Origin: Gammaproteobacteria bacterium
Lineage (GTDB): Bacteria; Pseudomonadota; Gammaproteobacteria; Nitrococcales; Nitrococcaceae
Direction of reading: 5' to 3'
NCBI GenBank assembly: GCA_030433275.1
Contig: JAUILK010000011.1
Coordinates: 1 to 64,000, forward strand
Length of the DNA: 64,000 nucleotides
The notes beneath the pieces are model-generated. The model saw only the letters and a list, made by a program, of their open reading frames with translations, had not been told where the DNA came from and did no database searches. A program made the translations under genes and the position numbers. Below are positions 10,658 to 20,909 of this stretch, one piece after another; the first letter of the stretch is position 1; each line of letters begins with the position of its first letter.

Positions 10658-10777
10658 GTACACGCACCGGCAAAGTTTCACGGCTGCCGGGGATCACGCT
10701 GTGTGGCCCTTGCCATTGCAGCACCCCCACAACAAGTCATACAGTTACCAGCATCTTTGCCCGTAAGAAGAATGCCG

Positions 10778-11773
10778 ATGACCGAACCACAACGCGCCAC
10801 TGGCGTATTATTGACCAATCTTGGCACACCCGCGGCACCCACCCCGCAAGCGCTGCGCCGCTACTTAGCCGAATTCCTTTGGGATCACCGCGTCGTAGAG
10901 CTGCCACGGCCGCTGTGGTGGCTGGTGCTAAACGGCGTGATCCTCTGGATCAGACCGCGCCGCTCCGCAGCGGCCTACCAACGTATATGGACGCAACAGG
11001 GCTCCCCCTTGCTCACCATCTCGCAACAACAGGCGGCCCGGCTCGCCGAGCGCCTCGAAGGACAGTACTCAAAACAACTTAAGGTTGCTCTGGGGATGCG
11101 CTACGGGCAGCCGTCCATCGAGTCGGCCTATGCGGAGCTGGAAGCTGCCGGCTGTGAGCGCATAGTGGTGCTGCCGCTCTATCCGCAGTACTCGGCAGCC
11201 ACTACGGCCTCGACTTATGACGCGCTCGGAGCGATTCTGCGCAAACGTCGTGTCATGCCGCAGCTGCGCCTACTCCGGGACTACCACGACCACCCGAGCT
11301 ACATCAACGCTCTGGCGGCTTCGGTCCGGGAATACTGGCAGCAACACGGCCGTGGCGAGCGTCTGCTCATCTCCTTCCACGGCATCCCAAAGCGTTACGC
11401 CGAACGCGGCGATCCCTATCCCATTCAGTGCGGGCGCACGGCACGGGCCCTCGCCGAACGGCTGGACCTCGCGAGCGAGGAATGGCAAATGGTGTTCCAG
11501 TCCCGGTTCGGCCCTCAGCCCTGGCTCGAACCTTATACCGATCGTACCTTAGAGCATCTAGCACGCCGTGGAGTCAAGCGCGTAGATCTCATCTGTCCGG
11601 GGTTCGCGGCTGACTGCCTGGAAACACTAGAGGAGAACGACATGCTCAACCACGAGCGATTCTTGGCCGCTGGCGGCAGCGAGTTCCATTATATTCCCTG
11701 TCTCAACGACCGCCCTGACCACATCGACGCGCTGAGCGAGATCATACGAGAGAATCTCGCCGGCTGGTCTTAG
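10778..11773 (+). CDS. hemH: Ferrochelatase
   Basis: About 331 residues. Ferrochelatase inserts Fe(II) into protoporphyrin IX, the last step of haem synthesis. The N-terminus GVLLTNLGTPAAPT is classic. The metal-site His is residue 201 in ISFHGIPKRY, and the partner Glu lies in CPGFAADCLETLEE near the C-terminus. The start at 10778 is preceded by AAGAAG at a seven-base spacing; the frame is open further upstream, but those starts lack a ribosome site. The gene is separated from hemY, hemX and hemC by the lipid locus. Confidence 0.95.
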   Translation: MTEPQRATGVLLTNLGTPAAPTPQALRRYLAEFLWDHRVVELPRPLWWLVLNGVILWIRPRRSAAAYQRIWTQQGSPLLTISQQQAARLAERLEGQYSKQLKVALGMRYGQPSIESAYAELEAAGCERIVVLPLYPQYSAATTASTYDALGAILRKRRVMPQLRLLRDYHDHPSYINALAASVREYWQQHGRGERLLISFHGIPKRYAERGDPYPIQCGRTARALAERLDLASEEWQMVFQSRFGPQPWLEPYTDRTLEHLARRGVKRVDLICPGFAADCLETLEENDMLNHERFLAAGGSEFHYIPCLNDRPDHIDALSEIIRENLAGWS

Positions 11774-11881: not shown

Positions 11882-11910
11882 CTGCGGTCCTGCTGTAAGA
11901 GTTTTGTCAC
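11882..11910 (+). promoter_or_regulatory. Candidate PhoB-binding repeats (Pho box) before sulfotransferase operon
   Basis: Seven-base units spaced 11 bases apart: CTGCGGT (11882), CTGTAAG (11893) and TTGTCAC (11904). The last two, separated by AGTT, match the PhoB direct repeat CTGTCAT-N4-CTGTCA[CT] at 11 of 14 positions. They lie about 95 bases before the sulfotransferase start. The match is by eye and unproven. Confidence 0.45.
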
Positions 11911-12005
11911 AGTACCACGCTAGTCTGTGTCCCGATGACATAATACCTACCACGAGCCGTCGCCGACCGCTTACCGCGGCAGCAACGGCCTGTTTGGCTA
12001 GCGAG

Positions 12006-13223
12006 ATGCTACTGACCTTGCTCCGCGATACGCTACGCCGCTACGCGCGGCTTATTGGGGTCACGCTCCGACCGCCGCGCGGTGCGTTCGCGGGCCGAAC
12101 ACTGCGGCACTACGGCGTCGGTTCGATACTGCTAATACTGCTACCCGTGCTGCTTGCCTATCACTGGCTGGGGTTGCTGCTCGATGAGCTGTTGTTCCCG
12201 GGCTATCGGCGGGTACGCATCGAGCGTCCAGTATTCATTATGGGCGTGCCGCGCAGCGGGACAACGGCTCTGCACGAGACACTCGCCGAGGACACCCGGT
12301 TCACCACTTTTCGCACCTGGGAGTGCCTGTTCGCCTTGTCGGTGACCTGGCGCAGACTCTGGCTCGCCGTAGCAGCGTTTGACCGGCGGCTCGGCAAGCC
12401 GCTGAACCGAGCCCTGAACATCCTTGAGCGGCGGGTCTTCAGCGGGCTCAACGCCGTGCACCCCACGACGTTGCGCAGCCCGGAAGAGGACTACTTTGCA
12501 TTCCTGCCGCTTTTGTACTGCTTTATCCTGGTCGTGCCTTTCCCGGACGCCGAATGGCTGTGGCGCTTTGCTCGTTTCGATACCCGCCTTGAGGCGCAGG
12601 AGCGGGATCATCTCATGGCCTATTACCAACGCTGTATCCAACGCCACCTCTACGTCCACGGCCCGACCCGGCGTTTTTTATCCAAAAACGCCTCCTTCGC
12701 GCCGCTGGCGGGTGCGCTTGCCGAGACCTTCCCTGATGCCGCCTTCCTGTGCTGCCTTCGCGAGCCAGCAACGGCCGTATCCTCGCAACTCAGCTGCCTG
12801 GCCGGTCCGCTGCGCAGCCTGCACGGACGCTACTCAAGCGAGTTCCACGTACGCTTGATCGAGCAGTTCGGCTTCTATTACCGGTGTTTGCTAGACAGTC
12901 TCGGCAAACTACCGCCGCGACGGGCGGTGCTGATTCCGGCACCGGCACTGCGACGCCGCCTGGACGAGACAGTGGTGTCGTGCTACGCACGGCTCGGCCT
13001 GGCCATGACTCCCGCGTTCCGCGAGCACCTCCGACACCGGGCCCGGCAGGCCCGGGCAACGCACTCCATGCATCATCACCGCCCAGCCGACTTCGGCCTC
13101 GACCGCGAGGCGCTAGCGGCTCAATTCGCCGACGTCCATCGGCGCTTCGATTTCTCGCGCGACCATCTCTCATCAGACGCTCCGCAGGTCGCCACAACCG
13201 CATCTCGGACCCGATCGTCTTGA
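12006..13223 (+). CDS. Membrane-anchored sulfotransferase
   Basis: About 405 residues from the ATG at 12006. A TTG 102 bases upstream is in frame but overlaps the Pho-like repeats. A hydrophobic segment near residues 40-60 probably anchors the protein in the inner membrane. The PAPS-binding 5'-phosphosulfate loop is GVPRSGTT (82-87), and a later CCLREPATAVSS fits the 3'-phosphate segment. The family moves sulfate from PAPS to hydroxyls of sugars or lipids. The stop overlaps the start of the next glycosyltransferase (TGATG), so the two are translationally coupled. With two glycolipid-type enzymes following, a sulfated glycolipid or surface glycan is the best guess for the product. Confidence 0.82.
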   Translation: MLLTLLRDTLRRYARLIGVTLRPPRGAFAGRTLRHYGVGSILLILLPVLLAYHWLGLLLDELLFPGYRRVRIERPVFIMGVPRSGTTALHETLAEDTRFTTFRTWECLFALSVTWRRLWLAVAAFDRRLGKPLNRALNILERRVFSGLNAVHPTTLRSPEEDYFAFLPLLYCFILVVPFPDAEWLWRFARFDTRLEAQERDHLMAYYQRCIQRHLYVHGPTRRFLSKNASFAPLAGALAETFPDAAFLCCLREPATAVSSQLSCLAGPLRSLHGRYSSEFHVRLIEQFGFYYRCLLDSLGKLPPRRAVLIPAPALRRRLDETVVSCYARLGLAMTPAFREHLRHRARQARATHSMHHHRPADFGLDREALAAQFADVHRRFDFSRDHLSSDAPQVATTASRTRSS

Positions 13224-14353
13224 TGGCGCCGCGCCCGGCACGCCTGCCCTTACGGGTTGTCATCGTCTCGGACGCCGAATCCGAGCGGAACGGAGTTGGA
13301 ACCTATTACCACGACCTCGCTGAGCATTTGGCCACGCGTGTCGACACCGTCACGCTTATCTGCCCTCAAAACAATGAGCGCGCGCTCAAGCAGTGGCTCA
13401 AAATTCCGCTGCCCGGTGACACAACCCAACGCCTCGCGCTTCCTTCGCCGGTGCAGCTGCGCCGCCGGTTGCGCGAGTTGCGCCCACATACTGTAATCAT
13501 AGCGACACCTGGCCCATACGGCTTGATTGGCGCGTACTTCGCGCGGCGCCTTGCCAACCGGCTGATATTCGGCCTGCATACCCACTACGAGGCGCTGAGC
13601 AGCCTTTACTGGGGACCACTGATCGCACATATGAACCGCGCCTGCCTCGCCATGCAAAACCGGCTTCTCGCTCGGCAAGCCGATCATGTGGTGGCGAACT
13701 CTCCAGCCATGTGCACACTGGGCCATCAGTTAGGCAGCCATGCCGTCAGCCTGGTCGGTACGTTGGTACCCGAACCATTCCTGTCACGACCGCCAGCGCC
13801 ATTCGGTAAGGAGCTGCGCCGCATCCTCTTCGTAGGTCGGCTGGCGGCGGAAAAGCGCGTGGATACGGTGCTCGACAGCGCTGCAAAATTGCCTCACATT
13901 CATTTTCGCATCGCAGGAGACGGCCCGCAGCGTGACACCGTGGCAGCGGCGGCGCGATGCCTTCCGAATCTGGAATACCTCGGCTGGCTGCGCCGCAGCC
14001 AGGTGCTTGATGCTCTCGACGAATGCGACATGCTGGTTCTGCCCTCGCGCACCGAGGCGTTCGGCACCGTAGCTCTGGAAGCCTTGGCAAGGGGGCGCGT
14101 CACGCTTGTCTCACAGGGTTGCGGCATCGCCGAGTGGAGCGCGCTCAGCTCGGGACTCTACCGGTTCGCGGATGACGAGCCACTTGTCGCGGCGATTCAA
14201 CGCATCGCGGCGCAGGCTCCTGAAGCGCGCCGGGCACGCGCGACCCACGCCCGGCATGCGGTCGCAGACATGGTCCAGCAAGGCGTGCGAGTCTGGTTGG
14301 ACGTACTCGCGGGCACCGATAAGACGGCGCCCGCGTCCGCCAAGGCATGCTAG
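13223..14353 (+). CDS. Glycosyltransferase, family 4 (GT-B fold)
   Basis: 376 residues. The N-terminal Rossmann half starts VVIVSDAESERNGVGTYYHDL, a GT4-type acceptor-side glycine loop. The C-terminal half has ILFVGRLAAEKRVDTVLD and the E-x7-E donor motif in RTEAFGTVALE. The enzyme probably moves a hexose from a nucleotide sugar to a lipid acceptor at the cytoplasmic face. It begins inside the sulfotransferase stop and overlaps the next gene by seven bases, so the three genes form one tight operon. It resembles the second GT4 at 16085, which suggests two successive or alternative sugar additions. Donor and acceptor cannot be read from the sequence. Confidence 0.85.
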   Translation: MAPRPARLPLRVVIVSDAESERNGVGTYYHDLAEHLATRVDTVTLICPQNNERALKQWLKIPLPGDTTQRLALPSPVQLRRRLRELRPHTVIIATPGPYGLIGAYFARRLANRLIFGLHTHYEALSSLYWGPLIAHMNRACLAMQNRLLARQADHVVANSPAMCTLGHQLGSHAVSLVGTLVPEPFLSRPPAPFGKELRRILFVGRLAAEKRVDTVLDSAAKLPHIHFRIAGDGPQRDTVAAAARCLPNLEYLGWLRRSQVLDALDECDMLVLPSRTEAFGTVALEALARGRVTLVSQGCGIAEWSALSSGLYRFADDEPLVAAIQRIAAQAPEARRARATHARHAVADMVQQGVRVWLDVLAGTDKTAPASAKAC

Positions 14354-15075
14354 CCGCGCTGGTCAGTATCCACGACGTCATGCCGGAGACCCTGGACGAG
14401 GTCACCGGCATTCTCACACGCCTCGTCGTTTGCGGTATCCGCCGCGCGACTTTGTTGGTTGTACCGGGCCGCGCTTGGTCGATTAGCGACATCGCTCGCC
14501 TGCGACGCTGGCAGGAAGCCGGCCACATGCTCGCCGGGCACGGCTGGCATCACCGCATCGAGCGCTTCCCCACCCTGTATGCACGTGCCCACGGCGCCAT
14601 ACTCTCGCGCCGCAGCGCCGAGCATCTCGCTCTCGACGGGCCCGCCATTGCGGCGCTCATGGACACCAACCACGCCTGGTTCGCGCATCAAGGCTTAGCG
14701 CGCCCGTCACTATACGTACCACCGGCCTGGGCACTAGGGAAAATTGGTTACGAACAGCTCGCCGCCCGACCGTTCCGATTCGTGGAAACCCTCGGCGGTG
14801 TGCATGACACTCGCACCCGGCAATTTCACCGTCTGCCGCTAGTGGGTTTCGAAGCTGACACAGCTCTACGCGCTTTACTCCTACGCGCGAGCAACGCCAG
14901 CATGTACCGACTCATCCGGCAACGGCCACTGCGCGTGGCGATTCATCCAGCCGACGGCCGGCTCTATCTTGCCGAGGCACTGACGCAGACTCTTGCCGAC
15001 ATCCGATGGACGCTTAGCTACCCGGATCTCACCGACTGCACTTCGACACAACGCTGCAAAACCGGCCGGCGTTAG
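14347..15075 (+). CDS. DUF2334 / polysaccharide deacetylase-fold protein
   Basis: 242 residues. The start ALVSIHDVMPET gives the metal-binding Asp10 of the NodB-like fold. AGHGWHHR (64-70) supplies the metal His residues, and a VAIHPAD near the end is typical of the family. Related enzymes remove N-acetyl groups from amino sugars, although DUF2334 members are mostly uncharacterised. The gene overlaps the upstream GT4 by seven bases and ends facing the phosphoesterase gene. In this operon it could deacetylate an N-acetylated sugar headgroup before or after sulfation. That is inference from position. Confidence 0.78.
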   Translation: MLAALVSIHDVMPETLDEVTGILTRLVVCGIRRATLLVVPGRAWSISDIARLRRWQEAGHMLAGHGWHHRIERFPTLYARAHGAILSRRSAEHLALDGPAIAALMDTNHAWFAHQGLARPSLYVPPAWALGKIGYEQLAARPFRFVETLGGVHDTRTRQFHRLPLVGFEADTALRALLLRASNASMYRLIRQRPLRVAIHPADGRLYLAEALTQTLADIRWTLSYPDLTDCTSTQRCKTGRR

Positions 15076-15124: not shown

Positions 15125-15919
15125 TCAGGCAGCCGCAGGCGAGGCGCGCTCAACGGCTGGTGACTCTTCAAGCCAGTACAGCAGTTCGATCGTGCCGTCG
15201 GCGTGTTCGACCAGCGCCGTACAGCTCTCCACCCAATCGCCGCAGTTACAGTAAGTCACACCCCGCATCTCGCTGATCTCGGCTCGGTGGATGTGGCCGC
15301 AGATGACACCGTCGACACCTCGCTCCCACGCGGCGCGAGCAACCGCATCCCCGAAATTACTGATGTATTGCGCAGCATTCTTGACGCGGTGCTTGAGATA
15401 GCCTGCAAGCGACCAGTGCGGGAAACCCAGCCGCCGGCGGAAGTAGTTTATTACGCGGTTGAGCTGGAGCAGCCTGGAGTAAGCTATGTTGCCAACGACT
15501 GCGAGCAGCGGCGAGCATTGCACCACGCTGTCGAACTGATCACCGTGCAGCACCAGAAACCGGCGGCCACTGGCCGTGGTGTGTACAAGCTTGTTGACCA
15601 CGCGGACGTTGCCGAAGGTAGTGCCACAATGATCGCGCAGCAGCTCGTCGTGGTTGCCCGGCACGTAAACCACATGCGTGCCGCGACGCGCCTTACTAAG
15701 AATTGCGCGTATAACATCGTTATGGGCTTGAGGCCAATACACTCGCTTGCGCATGTACCAAAAATCAACAATGTCGCCGACCAAGTACAGCGTCTCGCAC
15801 TCGATGGTGCGCAGAAACTCCACCAAATGACCCGCCTGGCAACCGGGAAAACCCAGATGCACATCGGAAATCCAAACGCTCCGGTAACGGTAAGCTCGGG
15901 GGTGGCGCACAGTGATCAT
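15125..15919 (-). CDS. plcP: PlcP-like metallophosphoesterase (LpxH-fold family)
   Basis: 264 residues with a calcineurin-like two-metal centre: DVH (Asp19, His21), GDIVD (Asp49), GNHD (89-91), HGDQFD (His125) and GHIH (208-211). The set YRSVWISDVHLG, YWPQAHNDV, LGFPHWSL and GDWVESC is the signature of the group often labelled UDP-2,3-diacylglucosamine diphosphatase. That group includes Sinorhizobium meliloti PlcP, a phospholipase C that cuts phosphatidylcholine and related lipids to diacylglycerol under phosphate starvation. The divergent GT4 next door is the usual partner, Agt. A Pho-box-like repeat lies 76 bases upstream. I prefer PlcP over a lipid A role because of this partner and promoter, but substrate specificity is unproven. 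Confidence 0.78.
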   Translation of the reverse strand: MITVRHPRAYRYRSVWISDVHLGFPGCQAGHLVEFLRTIECETLYLVGDIVDFWYMRKRVYWPQAHNDVIRAILSKARRGTHVVYVPGNHDELLRDHCGTTFGNVRVVNKLVHTTASGRRFLVLHGDQFDSVVQCSPLLAVVGNIAYSRLLQLNRVINYFRRRLGFPHWSLAGYLKHRVKNAAQYISNFGDAVARAAWERGVDGVICGHIHRAEISEMRGVTYCNCGDWVESCTALVEHADGTIELLYWLEESPAVERASPAAA

Positions 15920-15964
15920 GAGGTTTGAGTTCCTCCGCCTGAGATTTTCGATCGCGAGTGTGCG

Positions 15965-15980
15965 CCTGAATCATTTCAGG
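15965..15980. repeat. Perfect inverted repeat in the plcP leader
   Basis: CCTGAA and TTCAGG arms are separated by TCAT, 46-61 bases before the plcP start. It could be an operator or a leader hairpin; nothing decides between them. Confidence 0.35.
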
Positions 15981-15994
15981 AACGTTATCGTCGA

Positions 15995-16012
15995 ATCACA
16001 GTTCGATGACAC
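15995..16012 (-). promoter_or_regulatory. Candidate Pho box facing plcP
   Basis: Read on the minus strand the site is GTGTCAT-CGAA-CTGTGAT. This matches the PhoB direct repeat CTGTCAT-N4-CTGTCA[CT] at 12 of 14 repeat positions with the correct 11-base period. GATAAC at 15989-15984 could be a -10 but is closer to the box than usual. Confidence 0.55.
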
Positions 16013-16032
16013 GTGGCAGAAAAATCATGGGA

Positions 16033-16050
16033 CGGACATACTGCTGTCAT
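16033..16050 (+). promoter_or_regulatory. Candidate Pho box facing the agt-like gene
   Basis: CGGACAT-ACTG-CTGTCAT; the second unit is a perfect PhoB half-repeat and the pair matches 12 of 14 positions. Weaker units in phase flank it (AAATCAT at 16022, ATGCAAT at 16055). It ends 34 bases before the agt start, so any transcript would have a very short leader. Confidence 0.5.
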
Positions 16051-16084
16051 CCGGATGCAATATGGCGTGGCGACAATCGGGCTC

Positions 16085-17125
16085 ATGCAGCGAATCGCTC
16101 TCGTCACGGATGCCTGGCATCCACAGATCAATGGGGTCGTCACAACCCTGCGGCACACCGTGCACGAGCTCAAGCAGCTCGGGCACGAGGTGCAAGTAAT
16201 CCATCCCGGCCAGTTCCGCACCACGCCCCTGCCCAGCTACCCTGAGATCCGGGTCGCCTTACGTCCGGGTCCACGACTCCGGAGGCTGCTGGATACGTTC
16301 GCGCCGCAAGCAATCCACATCGCCACCGAGGGCCCACTTGGCCTTGCGGCACGGCGCTACTGCCGGCGACACGGTTTGTGTTTCACTACCTCGCTGCACA
16401 CGCGCTTTCCAGAATACGTCCGCCTGCGCCTCCCATTCGTGCCGCTGTCCGTGGGCTACGCCTTTTTACGCTGGTTTCACGGCGCTGCCACGCGCACGCT
16501 GGTGAGTAATCCCATGATGGCCGAAGAGATGACCGAGCACGGCATCGCCAACCTTGCGCTCTGGTCTCGCGGCGCCGACACTGAATTGTTCCGCCCCGAC
16601 GACGCCTTCCTCTTGGAGGGAAAACGTCCGATCTTCATGTACGTAGGGCGTGTTGCTCCCGAGAAAAATATCGAGGCGTTTCTGAGTCTTGAGCTTCCGG
16701 GCACCAAATACGTCATCGGCGGTGGGCCCTCATTGGAGTCGTTGCGTCGCCGTTACCCAGAGGTTCACTTCACCGGCTACCGCATCGGCCGCGAACTGGC
16801 GCGCCATATCGCCGCTGCAGATGTGTTTGTGTTTCCCAGCCGAACCGATACGTTCGGGCTGGTGATGCTCGAAGCCATGGCCTGCGGCGTTCCAGTAGCT
16901 GCCTATCCGGTAGCAGGTCCGAACGCCGTAGTGATCGATGGTGAAACTGGGTGTCTCGACGAGAATCTGCAACGTGCCGCACTACGGGCCCTGAAGCTGG
17001 ATCGACGGCGCTGCCGCGAGTTCGCCTGCACACGCTCGTGGCGTGTGACCACCCACGAACTGGTCAATCAACTCGTTCCGACCCGCGCGATCGCGATGGT
17101 TGCAGCAGAGGAATTACAAAGATAA
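16085..17125 (+). CDS. agt: Agt-like GT4 glycosyltransferase (diacylglycerol glycosyltransferase candidate)
   Basis: About 346 residues from the ATG at 16085 (RIALVTDAWHPQINGVV). Further motifs are HIATEGPLGLAAR, the LHTRFPEYV stretch, FMYVGRVAPEKN and a D-x7-E donor motif in RTDTFGLVMLE. This is the subfamily that holds Agrobacterium Agt, which adds glucose or glucuronic acid to diacylglycerol when phosphate is scarce. It is divergent from the plcP-like gene, as in known plcP-agt pairs, and has its own Pho-like repeat. The same subfamily contains mannosyltransferases of the MgtA type, so the sugar is uncertain. An in-frame GTG 72 bases upstream is less likely because it lies before the Pho-like repeat. 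Confidence 0.8.
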   Translation: MQRIALVTDAWHPQINGVVTTLRHTVHELKQLGHEVQVIHPGQFRTTPLPSYPEIRVALRPGPRLRRLLDTFAPQAIHIATEGPLGLAARRYCRRHGLCFTTSLHTRFPEYVRLRLPFVPLSVGYAFLRWFHGAATRTLVSNPMMAEEMTEHGIANLALWSRGADTELFRPDDAFLLEGKRPIFMYVGRVAPEKNIEAFLSLELPGTKYVIGGGPSLESLRRRYPEVHFTGYRIGRELARHIAAADVFVFPSRTDTFGLVMLEAMACGVPVAAYPVAGPNAVVIDGETGCLDENLQRAALRALKLDRRRCREFACTRSWRVTTHELVNQLVPTRAIAMVAAEELQR

Positions 17126-17441
17126 TAGTCAGGCGGATCGCCATCCTAAGCGACGCAGGCTTCAGCAGCTAAGCGCTGCCCGCTGCGGCGGGACGGACAC
17201 AGACTCAATTCCTCGGCAATCGCCTCGCTGAGGAAACGCGCCATACCGATTGTTGCCAAAAACTCGTGCTGAAAGCGCAACAATGGCATCGCGTGATCGA
17301 TCTTTCCAACGCGAACCGGTCGCGGGCCAGGGCCATTTCGCACAAACACACCGGCAGACGCCGCCAGGAAACTCACCCAAGAACCGGTGATGATGGCATA
17401 TCACCTGCCTTGTACACTCAGCCGAGAGGACGAATCGGTCG
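17126..17441. other. Intergenic stretch before the aminotransferase
   Basis: 316 bases with no gene I can support. A 76-codon GTG-started frame on the minus strand (17146-17376) resembles nothing known. GAGAGGA at 17424-17430 serves the next gene. I found no convincing Pho repeat here. Confidence 0.4.
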
Positions 17442-19154
17442 ATGACATCGACAATCTTGGTCTACACGCTGGCAGGCAGCACCGTATTGGCGATTGTGTA
17501 CAAGCTGCAGGCGCGTTTGCGACTGTCCCGTGCGAAACACCCGTCGCTGCAAGGCCACGCCAAGCTAGCTCGGCGGATCGCGCGCCTGGTGCCATTCTAC
17601 GAATATAGCGAACGACGTTTCTTCCAGTGCGACAACGCGCCCGATGAGGTTGCCGCGCGGCGCCGCGCCGACTTCGAGCGCCTCGCCCGGTACTTTCGCG
17701 AGTACGCACCCCAGTCTCTCGAGATGAGCAGCAAACTTCAGTCCAGCCTCTCCGACGCGCTGTTCACCAACGCCTACCGCGTCCCCTTTCAATTTCGCCG
17801 CCACACCCAACGCCACCTGCCAATCGGCGCCGTGGTCGTGGCCTCTGCGGGACGACAGCTCAAGGACCTTGATGGCAACTGGGCGTACGATCTGTCCGGA
17901 TCCTACGGTGTCAACGTGTTCGGCTACGATTTCTACAAAGACTGCCTGGCAAGGGGCATGGCGCGGGCGCAGCCGCTCGGCCCGGTGCTAGGTAGCTATC
18001 ATCCGGTGGTCGCCGACAACGCCAAGCGCCTGCAGCGCATATCCGGCCTGGACGAGGTCTCCTTCCATATGTCCGGAACCGAGGCCGTGATGCAGGCAGT
18101 GCGGCTTGCTCGCTATCACACCGGTCGCTCCCACATGGTCCGTTTCGCCGGTGCCTATCACGGCTGGTGGGACGGCGTGCAAGCCGGCATCGGCAACCCG
18201 CGCCCGGCGCGTGACATTTATACACTCAAAGACATGGACCCCACCAGCCTGAAGGTGCTGCGCACACGTAAAGACATCGCTTGTGTTCTGGTAAGCCCGC
18301 TGCAGGCCCTACACCCCAACAAAGCTGCACCGGGTGACGCCGCTCTGATCAGCAGCGAGCGCGACGCGCACTTCGATCGTGCCGCGTATACCCGCTGGCT
18401 GCAGGCCCTGCGCGAGGTCTGCCGCGAACGCGACATCCCGCTGATTTTCGATGAGATCTTCTCTGGTTTCCGCCTAGCCTGCGGCGGCGCCCAGGAATAT
18501 TTCGGAGTCGACGCAGATCTGGTGGCCTATGGCAAAAGCTTGGGCGGCGGTCTTCCGGTCGGCGTGCTCTGCGGCCAGCGCTGGTTGATGAAACGCTTCC
18601 ACGACAATCGCCCGGCCGACATCTGCTTCGCGCGCGGCACCTTCAACGCGCACCCGTACGTCATGACCTGCATGAATGAGTTCCTACAGAGGCTTGACGA
18701 ACCCGAGGTCAAGAATCACTACGCGCGCGTACACGCGGTTTGGGATGAACGGACTCACGCCCTAAACGAGGTACTGCGCCGCAGCGAGCTGCCGCTGCGC
18801 GTAGTCAATATCGTCTCCGTCCTGACGGTGCTTTACCTGGTTCCAAGCCGCTACAACTGGCTGTTTCAATACTATTTACGGGCGCACGGACTCGCCCTTT
18901 CCTGGACCGGAACGGGGCGTTTAATCATGAGTCATGATTATTCCGAAGCCGACTTCGAGGCCGTCAAGGAACGCTTCGTCGCCGCCGCGCAGGCCATGCA
19001 GGCGGCCGGCTGGTGGTGGCAAAGCCCGGTGTTGACCAATCGGGTCATCAAGCGGCAGGTGCTTGGTGAGATGCTCTCCGCCTGCCTCGGGCGCCGCCGT
19101 ATCTGCGTCAAGCGCCTGTGCCCAACTGAACCACAGCAGCAAAAACCCCGCTAG
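17442..19154 (+). CDS. Membrane-anchored class III PLP aminotransferase (glutamate-1-semialdehyde aminomutase-like)
   Basis: 570 residues, about 130 more than soluble family members. Residues 4-20 form a hydrophobic membrane anchor, followed by a basic linker to about 120. The PLP fold shows SGTEA (211-215), YHGWWDG (239-245), the cofactor-binding Asp337 in IFDEIF, and the Schiff-base Lys365 in VAYGKSLGGGLPVG. The family transfers or shifts amino groups on semialdehydes and ketones. The membrane anchor and the lipid-enzyme neighbours suggest a long-chain or lipid-linked carbonyl substrate, for example to make an aminolipid. It is not the hemL of tetrapyrrole synthesis, given its length and anchor. 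A ribosome site GAGAGGA lies 11 bases upstream. Confidence 0.8.
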   Translation: MTSTILVYTLAGSTVLAIVYKLQARLRLSRAKHPSLQGHAKLARRIARLVPFYEYSERRFFQCDNAPDEVAARRRADFERLARYFREYAPQSLEMSSKLQSSLSDALFTNAYRVPFQFRRHTQRHLPIGAVVVASAGRQLKDLDGNWAYDLSGSYGVNVFGYDFYKDCLARGMARAQPLGPVLGSYHPVVADNAKRLQRISGLDEVSFHMSGTEAVMQAVRLARYHTGRSHMVRFAGAYHGWWDGVQAGIGNPRPARDIYTLKDMDPTSLKVLRTRKDIACVLVSPLQALHPNKAAPGDAALISSERDAHFDRAAYTRWLQALREVCRERDIPLIFDEIFSGFRLACGGAQEYFGVDADLVAYGKSLGGGLPVGVLCGQRWLMKRFHDNRPADICFARGTFNAHPYVMTCMNEFLQRLDEPEVKNHYARVHAVWDERTHALNEVLRRSELPLRVVNIVSVLTVLYLVPSRYNWLFQYYLRAHGLALSWTGTGRLIMSHDYSEADFEAVKERFVAAAQAMQAAGWWWQSPVLTNRVIKRQVLGEMLSACLGRRRICVKRLCPTEPQQQKPR

Positions 19155-19261
19155 CTGGACCACCCCGGACGAGCCTGCCGGCGAAGGCCGCTTCGCGCCG
19201 CTTGTGCATAAGACGAGCGGCGCTCGGTCGGCGGGTCGTGGCAGCTGCCGCTATAAGGTAG

Positions 19262-19903
19262 TCACCCCTCACGGGCCTGGGAGTAGACCGCAAGCGTGCT
19301 GTCCTGGCGCACCTCGATCATGGGATCGATCAGCTCGCCCTTGAGTAAATGCAACGGTGCCTTGTAATAAAGCTTCACATCGTGGAAGGGATCGGTGAGA
19401 ATTTTCAGAAACCAGGCGAGCCCGGTGATTACATCGTAGATGAAAAACAAATGCACAGTGCGGAATACCAGCGCCGCGCCACCCAGGCACAGCCACAGCA
19501 CCGAGAGGTCGTAGAAATAGCCGTATAAATCCCGGTACGGCGTTATCAGACCGAATAGGCTGGGCTCGACTATGAGCACGATCGGTGAAGCGCCCCAGAT
19601 CGAAAGCAACACGATTTTACGCCTGAGATTGTAGCCGATCTTGATCTGCTCCTTGTAATCATGCGTGACACGATTAACCCTGTCATAGCCTTTGGGCTCG
19701 AAGAAAAAGTGCCCGATCTGCCGAGAGCACATGGCTACGATCCAACCGAGCAACGCTGTCACCACCGGATTGATCAGCACATAAGCGTAAGCGGTCAGAA
19801 AGCTTAGTGCGCTCAAAAGGTGTAGAGATTGATTGACGCGGCTGTGGTGATAATAACGATGGTCATCCCAGCGCTGTTCACGGAGTTCATGGAGCAATCT
19901 CAT
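19262..19903 (-). CDS. DUF962 / Mpo1-like integral membrane protein
   Basis: 213 residues with about four membrane segments. The pattern YYHHSRVNQSLHLLS, then W-x-x-A-x5-QIGHFFFEP, gives the conserved His residues of the DUF962/Mpo1 family. Yeast Mpo1 is an Fe(II) dioxygenase that alpha-oxidises 2-hydroxy fatty acids from phytosphingosine; bacterial members are mostly unstudied. The gene is convergent with the aminotransferase and lies just downstream of psd on the same strand. A lipid or fatty-acid oxidation role fits the locus but is inference. The family call rests on the His pattern and topology. Confidence 0.65.
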   Translation of the reverse strand: MRLLHELREQRWDDHRYYHHSRVNQSLHLLSALSFLTAYAYVLINPVVTALLGWIVAMCSRQIGHFFFEPKGYDRVNRVTHDYKEQIKIGYNLRRKIVLLSIWGASPIVLIVEPSLFGLITPYRDLYGYFYDLSVLWLCLGGAALVFRTVHLFFIYDVITGLAWFLKILTDPFHDVKLYYKAPLHLLKGELIDPMIEVRQDSTLAVYSQAREG

Positions 19904-20033
19904 TCTTCGAATCCCTCATCTGGTTTTTGTAAGGCGGTAATTTTCCATTTTCACTGCACTTCAGTTACCAATTTGCGACAATTGAGTTACGGAAATATTT
20001 CGATCGCTGGCCGCGACCGTTTGCTGTTGCTCA

Positions 20034-20909
20034 TCAAGCCCGTGGCTTGAGCAATAACGGCTGCCCCATGCGCACGGTGGCGCCCTTCTGCAGATTGGGT
20101 ACCAGGACGAACCCCGCGCTAGCCAACACGATGATCGTAGAGCCCTGCTGGAAATAACCCATTTCCTCACCGCGCGCATAGCGCCGTCGGCACGGCAAGA
20201 TCCTCGGACCGCGATAGTGCAGATCCAGCGGCAGCTCGAGCCCATGCACCATAATGGTTGCGACGAGAATAGCCGCCACTGGCACTAGCGCGATACAGTG
20301 TGGCGAGCTGCTTAAGTGCAGTTCCAACACAGCACGCTCGTTGCGGCAGTAGAGGCGCTCGATGCACTTCAAGGCTATGGGATTCACATTCCAGGTATCG
20401 CCCGAGACGTAGCGCACCTCGCGCAGACAGCCTGTATCGGGGGCATGAAAGCGATGGTACATGTTAGCCTTGAGCCGCAAGGTCACGAACACGCCATCGC
20501 GATAGCGCTCCGCCAAAACGTCGTCGCCGAGCAGTTCCGGCAGGCTGTAGGGAAATCCCTTGGCCTGGAAGACCTCGGTACCACGAACCGGACCGAACGC
20601 ACCCACCACCCCGTCACAAGGGCTCACCAACACCGCCGGATCGCTGGCTACGGGTCGTGCACCCGGTTTGAGTTCCCGGATGAAACAATCCTGCATACTG
20701 GCGAAACGCGTCTTTCGCGCTTCGTGCAGGCGCAGATCGCCGGCAAAAATCTGCCACACGGCGATGGATACGTATCGCACCAATGGGTTACGCACCCGGC
20801 TGAACCAGCCTATGAACAGCGTAGCGTAGCGGCGCGGGATACGATTGGTAATCAGGAAATTGACGCGCTCGCGGGGCGAGAGCCGGCTTAGGGGCGTTCG
20901 GGTTATCAA
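20034..20909 (-). CDS. psd: Phosphatidylserine decarboxylase proenzyme
   Basis: 291 residues. Psd decarboxylates phosphatidylserine to phosphatidylethanolamine at the inner membrane. SPCDG (96-100) holds the Asp of the processing triad, and MYHRFHAP (150-157) the His. Self-cleavage would occur at Gly256-Ser257 in a QGST motif, giving the pyruvoyl group on the alpha chain. Most members have LGST here, so the Gln is a minor variant. A hydrophobic patch near 206-222 may touch the membrane. Placement beside a phospholipid methyltransferase suggests headgroup processing from PS to PE to methylated PE. Confidence 0.93.
   Translation of the reverse strand: MITRTPLSRLSPRERVNFLITNRIPRRYATLFIGWFSRVRNPLVRYVSIAVWQIFAGDLRLHEARKTRFASMQDCFIRELKPGARPVASDPAVLVSPCDGVVGAFGPVRGTEVFQAKGFPYSLPELLGDDVLAERYRDGVFVTLRLKANMYHRFHAPDTGCLREVRYVSGDTWNVNPIALKCIERLYCRNERAVLELHLSSSPHCIALVPVAAILVATIMVHGLELPLDLHYRGPRILPCRRRYARGEEMGYFQQGSTIIVLASAGFVLVPNLQKGATVRMGQPLLLKPRA

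Follow-up and report, generated by a model that had tools for sequence, protein, structure and literature searches.

To our knowledge, few phosphate-free substitutes for acidic phospholipids are known in bacteria, namely the sulfoquinovosyl- and glucuronosyl-diacylglycerols. Phosphate-free glycolipids are made by the Pho-controlled PlcP-Agt system, which consists of a phospholipase C and a glycosyltransferase of family 4 (GT4) (PMC4796936, PMC8528852). In gpgSDF of Pseudomonas aeruginosa, a GT4 and a DUF2334 protein form an experimentally characterised synthase/deacetylase pair for an N-acetylglucosamine (GlcNAc) lipid, with glucosaminyl-phosphatidylglycerol (GlcN-PG) as the product (PMC12713373). 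Here we describe a block of three genes, encoding a sulfotransferase (ST), a GT4 and a DUF2334 protein, in a 64,000-nucleotide stretch of a gammaproteobacterial genome (Nitrococcaceae; contig JAUILK010000011.1, positions 1 to 64,000), hereafter the window. We favour, with moderate confidence, the reading that this block is a PhoB-controlled pathway to a sulfated hexosaminyl-diacylglycerol, a phosphate-free membrane lipid. A phosphate-free sulfated glycolipid had been suggested in a preliminary description of the locus, and the Pho-like sites, the co-occurrence and adjacency of plcP, and the GT4-DUF2334 precedent (PMC12713373) lend support to that suggestion.

All three genes lie on the plus strand. 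The first encodes a predicted ST dependent on 3'-phosphoadenosine-5'-phosphosulfate (PAPS; 12006..13223; PF13469, AlphaFold 2 (AF2) model with Foldseek, invariant motifs), the second a GT4 (13223..14353; PF00534/PF13692/PF13439), and the third a predicted N-deacetylase of the DUF2334/COG3233 type with a fold like that of carbohydrate esterase family 4 (CE4) (14347..15075; PF10096, AF2/Foldseek). The stop of ST shares TGATG (13221-13225) with the start of GT4, and the ATG of DUF2334 (14347) precedes the GT4 stop (14353), giving a seven-base overlap. The block converges on a gene for a PlcP-like calcineurin-type phosphoesterase, a predicted phospholipase C (15125..15919, minus strand; PF12850/PF00149), with about 50 bp between them; beyond it, and divergent from plcP, lies its partner, an Agt-like GT4 (16013..17125, plus strand, with the real start probably at 16088; GT4 Pfam families). 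The overlaps and the convergence on plcP put forward in the preliminary description are thus borne out by the coordinates, and its enzyme identities for the three genes by the Pfam matches. The start of ST is probably ATG 12006 rather than TTG 11904, because homologues align from the former and the latter would fall within a Pho-like site; an opening at TTG 11904, which the open reading frame allows, was rejected from the homologue alignment.

The ST protein matches PF13469 (Sulfotransfer_3) with E 1.8e-18, and its AF2 model (predicted local distance difference test, pLDDT, 93.5) has mycobacterial sulfotransferases as its nearest solved folds, namely Mycobacterium tuberculosis STF1 (2zq5, E 4.4e-11), which is the best Foldseek match, and M. 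avium STF9 (2z6v). The alignment to these proteins covers the full length, whereas identity is about 20%, and the structure records name no substrate. The 5'-phosphosulfate-binding (5'-PSB) motif is GVPRSGTT and the 3'-phosphate-binding (3'-PB) residues are R252/S260; among ST homologues the PAPS-binding residues G80, P82-S84, T86, R252 and S260 are invariant, and so are H152 and E160-E161-D162. The host genome encodes an adenylylsulfate (APS) kinase (208.5 bits, contig C93), which indicates that a source of PAPS is present, so that fold, 5'-PSB and 3'-PB motifs, and PAPS supply are all as expected of a PAPS sulfotransferase. As for the proposal that ST is membrane-anchored, there is an N-terminal helix of 31 residues, for which 59 of 62 homologues show a mean hydropathy over 19 residues of more than 1.6. 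The core is nearly as hydrophobic in other places, however, which leaves anchoring plausible only.

The DUF2334 protein matches PF10096 with E 1.3e-11, and its AF2 model (pLDDT 93) is nearest to CE4 deacetylases in Foldseek (E 3e-6), with the deacetylase domain of the heparan sulfate N-deacetylase/N-sulfotransferase NDST1 (8cd0) also matched. Its invariant residues are H9-D10, H65, H69 and H200. Together with the CE4 matches these agree with a NodB-like fold and a D-H-H metal triad (D10, H65, H69), for which metal binding is predicted, and the position that usually holds the catalytic base of CE4 enzymes is occupied by H9, not D. The family models for the P. aeruginosa pair give scores below their cut-offs, with 54 bits against 280 for DUF2334 (NF053788, GlcNAc-PG deacetylase) and 45.7 against 480 for GT4 (NF053787, GlcNAc-PG synthase). 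A search of PDB profiles with GT4 returned generic GT-B matches only, BshA being among the weak ones, and the donor and acceptor can therefore not be inferred from it. Nine loci of the class sample with divergent DUF2334 genes, from outside this clade, were examined (L189-L197), and in all of them the gene lies directly behind a GT4, as in gpgSD; partnership with lipid GT4 enzymes thus seems to be general for DUF2334. One genome (G379, L216) has GT4 and DUF2334 of this clade as a pair but no ST, behind ABC transporter genes that by eye are of the branched-chain amino acid type; the absence of ST there is consistent with sulfation being the last and a dispensable step.

To assess conservation we scanned GTDB genomes, which yielded 80 loci outside the window, and scored these loci with a profile for each protein. 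The block is present in order and on one strand in 66 of these; seven are cut by contig ends, and the remaining seven hold ST (or ST-GT4) without the rest, so that the complete block is found in 66 of the 73 evaluable loci, and the conservation that the preliminary description had proposed to look for is indeed observed. The loci are distributed over Gamma- and Alphaproteobacteria, Desulfobacterota and Verrucomicrobiota, with carriers that include Halomonas/Vreelandella, Aidingimonas, Marichromatium, Thiococcus, Rhabdochromatium, Rhodospira, Roseospira, Granulosicoccus, Desulfobacterales and Opitutales, and the genera of the named isolates are, we presume, all marine, hypersaline/saline or from soda lakes. 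Within a family sample of 23 genomes, including Arhodomonas aquaeolei and Spiribacter salilacus, ST occurs in 18, each time with GT4 directly after it, and DUF2334 follows as well, except on one contig that is cut short and behind the second ST-GT4 copy of G018. That copy (L030, G018:C3) is a fused ST-GT4 gene, and the complete block is located elsewhere in the same genome. Fusion of ST and GT4 into a single reading frame is found in Spiribacter-type genomes (727-809 amino acids) and also in metagenome-assembled genomes of a Thiorhodovibrio and a Halothiobacillus, that is, in at least three lineages. The pairwise identity matrices of ST, GT4 and DUF2334 are correlated (Mantel P = 0.001), as is partly expected from common ancestry. 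Homologues of ST alongside which no GT4 or DUF2334 was found occur at L087, L093, L098, L118, L120 and L130-L133, some of them apparently from freshwater or wastewater-type samples.

A candidate Pho repeat had been noted upstream of the block. This direct repeat, CTGTAAG-AGTT-TTGTCAC (11893..11910, plus strand), lies some 96 bp before the probable start of ST, with a weak -10-like TAGTCT (11921-11926) 10 bp after it. When mismatches are counted the site is unremarkable, with four to a doubled CTGTCAT, and even matches with three mismatches occur at chance level; we therefore used matrices instead. A position weight matrix was built from the Pho sites of 18 pstS promoters of the family, with the window site and all block promoters excluded; this matrix is not fully blind, as a consensus guided the choice of the pstS sites. 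Under it, the site ranks first among all positions of the 64 kb on both strands (17.3 bits), and it ranks first again under a matrix of the literature consensus (17.1 bits), where the phoB and pstS sites of the genome itself reach 18.4 and 17.5 bits. The host genome has both PhoB and PstS.

The signal is not limited to the window. Seven of 17 family loci score above the 99% level of the upstream regions of other genes, and 16 of 60 other loci above their 95% level. Against intergenic controls of similar G+C, 25 of 77 block upstream regions exceed the 95% level, compared to an expectation of 3.9. Matrices with permuted columns told blocks and controls apart less well in all 200 cases (area under the curve 0.485 +/- 0.037, compared to 0.656 for the unpermuted matrix). 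Hence PhoB-type boxes lie upstream of the block beyond chance, as for members of a Pho regulon, and a chance origin of the enrichment is unlikely, given the spread of the loci over phyla, even though their relatedness makes a binomial P value too small. Further sites are present in the window between plcP and agt: GTGTCAT-CGAA-CTGTGAT (15995..16012, minus strand) before plcP has two mismatches to the consensus and ranks fifth (13.3 bits), and a site at agt (16033-16050) ranks sixth (12.9 bits). Pho-like sites of either orientation thus occur in this region (15995-16061), and those of the plus strand include a 7-4-7-4-7 arrangement.

The block also occurs with plcP more often than expected, in counts that take no account of ancestry or habitat. 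In the family, plcP is found in 17 of 18 genomes with the block and in one of five genomes without it (P = 0.0027), and in the class sample (Gammaproteobacteria) in 8 of 9 compared to 95 of 360 (P = 2e-4). Across phyla, 36 of the 50 block-bearing genomes that were reached through their loci have plcP, set against the 95 of 360 block-less Gammaproteobacteria (P = 6e-10), a figure obtained, beyond the Gammaproteobacteria, without a matched block-less control. The search for the block together with plcP and agt that the preliminary description had called for thus gives a positive answer, and in three family genomes the two adjoin in as many arrangements: convergent in the window, divergent in G013, and as plcP-gtrA-ST-GT4-DUF2334 on one strand in G002. 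By a rough estimate, 0.1 such adjacencies would be expected in some 70 genomes. G002 (L040/L116) carries two plcP paralogues, one beside agt and the other at the head of the block operon. Each has its own glycosyltransferase, an arrangement suggesting that the block GT4 uses diacylglycerol as its acceptor. In a nearly complete Spiribacter-type genome (G014) the block, plcP and any PstS match that passes the applied cut-off are all absent, which would fit the joint loss of a phosphate-stress set.

Pho control, plcP, a GT4, an N-deacetylase and a sulfotransferase, in many cases with a GtrA-type membrane protein, occur together, and it is this combination that leads us to infer the acceptor, the sugar, the order of steps, the site of sulfation and the physiological role. 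Under phosphate starvation, PhoB would turn on plcP, agt and the block operon, and diacylglycerol would be supplied by PlcP or by general lipid turnover. The GT4 would place an N-acetylhexosamine, probably GlcNAc, on diacylglycerol, the DUF2334 enzyme would remove the acetyl group, and the membrane-associated ST would sulfate the sugar from PAPS, on the amine or on a hydroxyl, to give a phosphate-free charged lipid. In many lineages, the GtrA-type protein of the same operon would then move this lipid across the membrane. The product may carry a free or a sulfated amine and could be zwitterionic rather than simply anionic: a sulfate on the amine would make the lipid anionic, and one on a hydroxyl of a free-amine sugar would make it zwitterionic. 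A narrower form of this proposal, which we put forward tentatively and with rather less than even expectation, is that DUF2334 and ST are a split bacterial counterpart of heparan NDST, by which lipid-bound GlcNAc would be deacetylated and N-sulfated to an anionic, phosphate-free and PhoB-controlled N-sulfoglucosaminyl-diacylglycerol.

Several observations speak against a PhoB-controlled, phosphate-free lipid. For about two thirds of the blocks, no Pho-like site was found in the upstream region. A PlcP match is missing from 14 of the 50 block-bearing genomes, including Halomonas-type and Granulosicoccus genomes, and plcP is therefore not required. Four congeners do not have the block, which is therefore not essential in the genus. 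The sugar specificity of GT4 is not readable from sequence, and phosphatidylglycerol (PG) is the substrate of gpgSD, the DUF2334 pair that has been characterised, so the acceptor here may contain phosphate.

The last point is the basis of the main rival, in which PG is modified as by gpgSDF, through GlcNAc-PG and GlcN-PG to sulfated GlcN-PG, and the product serves to adjust the charge of the cell surface when phosphate or salt is a stress, instead of saving phosphate. This course would suit the saline habitats from which, as we take it, the named isolate genera come, and where charged lipids matter. It also has the nearest experimentally known GT4-DUF2334 pair as its model (PMC12713373), whose family models match the window proteins weakly but really. 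These matches are nevertheless far under the equivalog cut-offs, and PhoB control and linkage to plcP fit the removal of phospholipids better than their decoration; hence we consider a PG acceptor unlikely.

The neighbourhood of the block bears on a second rival, in which the sugar is linked to undecaprenyl, flipped by GtrA, and joined to an O-antigen, exopolysaccharide or glycoprotein as a sulfated amino-sugar side chain. Multi-component systems for the glycosylation of cell surfaces are known to have GtrA-type proteins as partners (GtcA, PMC7389260). Of 65 upstream genes scanned, 15 encode a membrane protein of the GtrA type (PF04138), and a profile search places GtrA immediately 5' of ST at 17 distinct loci, in many of which it overlaps the ST start. 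Most blocks, including that of the window, are nevertheless without an adjacent GtrA, and among the first upstream and the two downstream neighbours no capsule, O-antigen, polymerase or GT-C transferase gene recurs. The preliminary description had named a location mainly beside capsule or O-antigen genes as the observation that would overturn its reading; this is not what is seen, the neighbours being, except for GtrA, otherwise unrelated household genes. A surface glycan would also leave the links to plcP and Pho unexplained, and we regard it as improbable. A soluble glycoside ended by sulfation, such as an osmolyte, is more improbable still: the two-step logic of a BshA/MshA-type GT4 followed by a deacetylase, as in bacillithiol and mycothiol, is a known one, BshA is among the weak PDB profile matches and the habitats are presumably saline, but BshB/MshB belong to a deacetylase family other than the CE4-like DUF2334, the hydrophobic N-terminal helix of ST and the presence of GtrA next to it speak for a substrate in the membrane, and PhoB control would be unexpected for an osmolyte.

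In the window, ST is preceded by hemH (10703-11773, plus strand). As general neighbours of the block, phosphorus-related genes are limited to plcP (three loci) and, in a few cases, PhnD-like genes; the latter, for phosphonate-binding proteins, lie within 5-7 kb of the block at L058, L065 and L103 (Rhodospira, Roseospira and Vreelandella; by eye, from one sequence). The PlcP-like protein of the window scores far below the LpxH cut-offs, and the plcP-agt pair is kept in the relatives G002, G005, G007 and G022. The clustering of PlcP with a diacylglycerol glycosyltransferase is thus present in the window, although it concerns the neighbours, to which the block is an addition. The stretch 15125-20909 encodes plcP, agt, an unusual class III aminotransferase of 570 amino acids, an Mpo1-like protein and a phosphatidylserine decarboxylase, a cluster that is kept in G005 (L169) and G002 (L168), and the aminotransferase and the Mpo1-like protein may also be part of lipid remodelling.

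If the proposed pathway is correct, a sulfated amino-sugar cassette would represent a separate solution to the replacement of acidic phospholipids, one shared by marine and saline bacteria from several phyla, and it could account for unidentified glycolipids in phosphate-poor waters. It would also provide a function for one clade each of DUF2334 and Sulfotransfer_3 proteins, and ST-GT4-DUF2334 offers a direct marker for lipidomics and metagenomics. The parts are of known kinds, whereas the open-licence PMC literature yielded neither their combination nor its Pho control nor the lipid class that it implies: searches there for a pathway with this gene set, and for a sulfated glycolipid made when phosphate is limiting, gave no match. 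Within that literature, the statement of the preliminary description that no pathway with this exact gene set has been described holds.

As in gpgSDF, the GT4 gene stands directly before that for a DUF2334/COG3233 deacetylase within one operon (13223-15075 in the window, and 66 loci), and the operon can include a gene for a membrane translocase, which is GtrA in relatives. The two differ in that gpgSDF has a YbhN-type flippase (GpgF) where relatives of the window have GtrA and the window has ST instead, no YbhN-type family recurring among the listed block neighbours, and in that gpgSDF has no sulfotransferase and uses PG as the acceptor, the window proteins being far under the GpgS/GpgD equivalog cut-offs. 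In hexSDF of Clostridioides difficile (PMC10128005), a glycosyltransferase, a deacetylase and a flippase likewise lead to an amino-sugar glycolipid, but HexS is annotated as of the monoglycosyldiacylglycerol (MGDG)-synthase type and HexD as a polysaccharide deacetylase, there is no sulfotransferase, and control is through the HexRK two-component system, not PhoB. The PlcP-Agt pair is itself present beside the block in the window, whereas its products, MGDG and glucuronic acid diacylglycerol (GADG), contain neither amino sugar nor sulfate, and the parts of the description that we could consult mention a sulfotransferase in none of six plcP neighbourhood types. Between them, these precedents would cover every proposed step but sulfation. 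For a CE4-type deacetylase followed by a PAPS sulfotransferase acting on GlcNAc, the likeness is to NDST1: NDST structures are among the weaker fold matches of both the ST and the DUF2334 models, although NDST1 is eukaryotic, a single bifunctional protein with a polysaccharide substrate, and of no close sequence relation to the proteins of the window.

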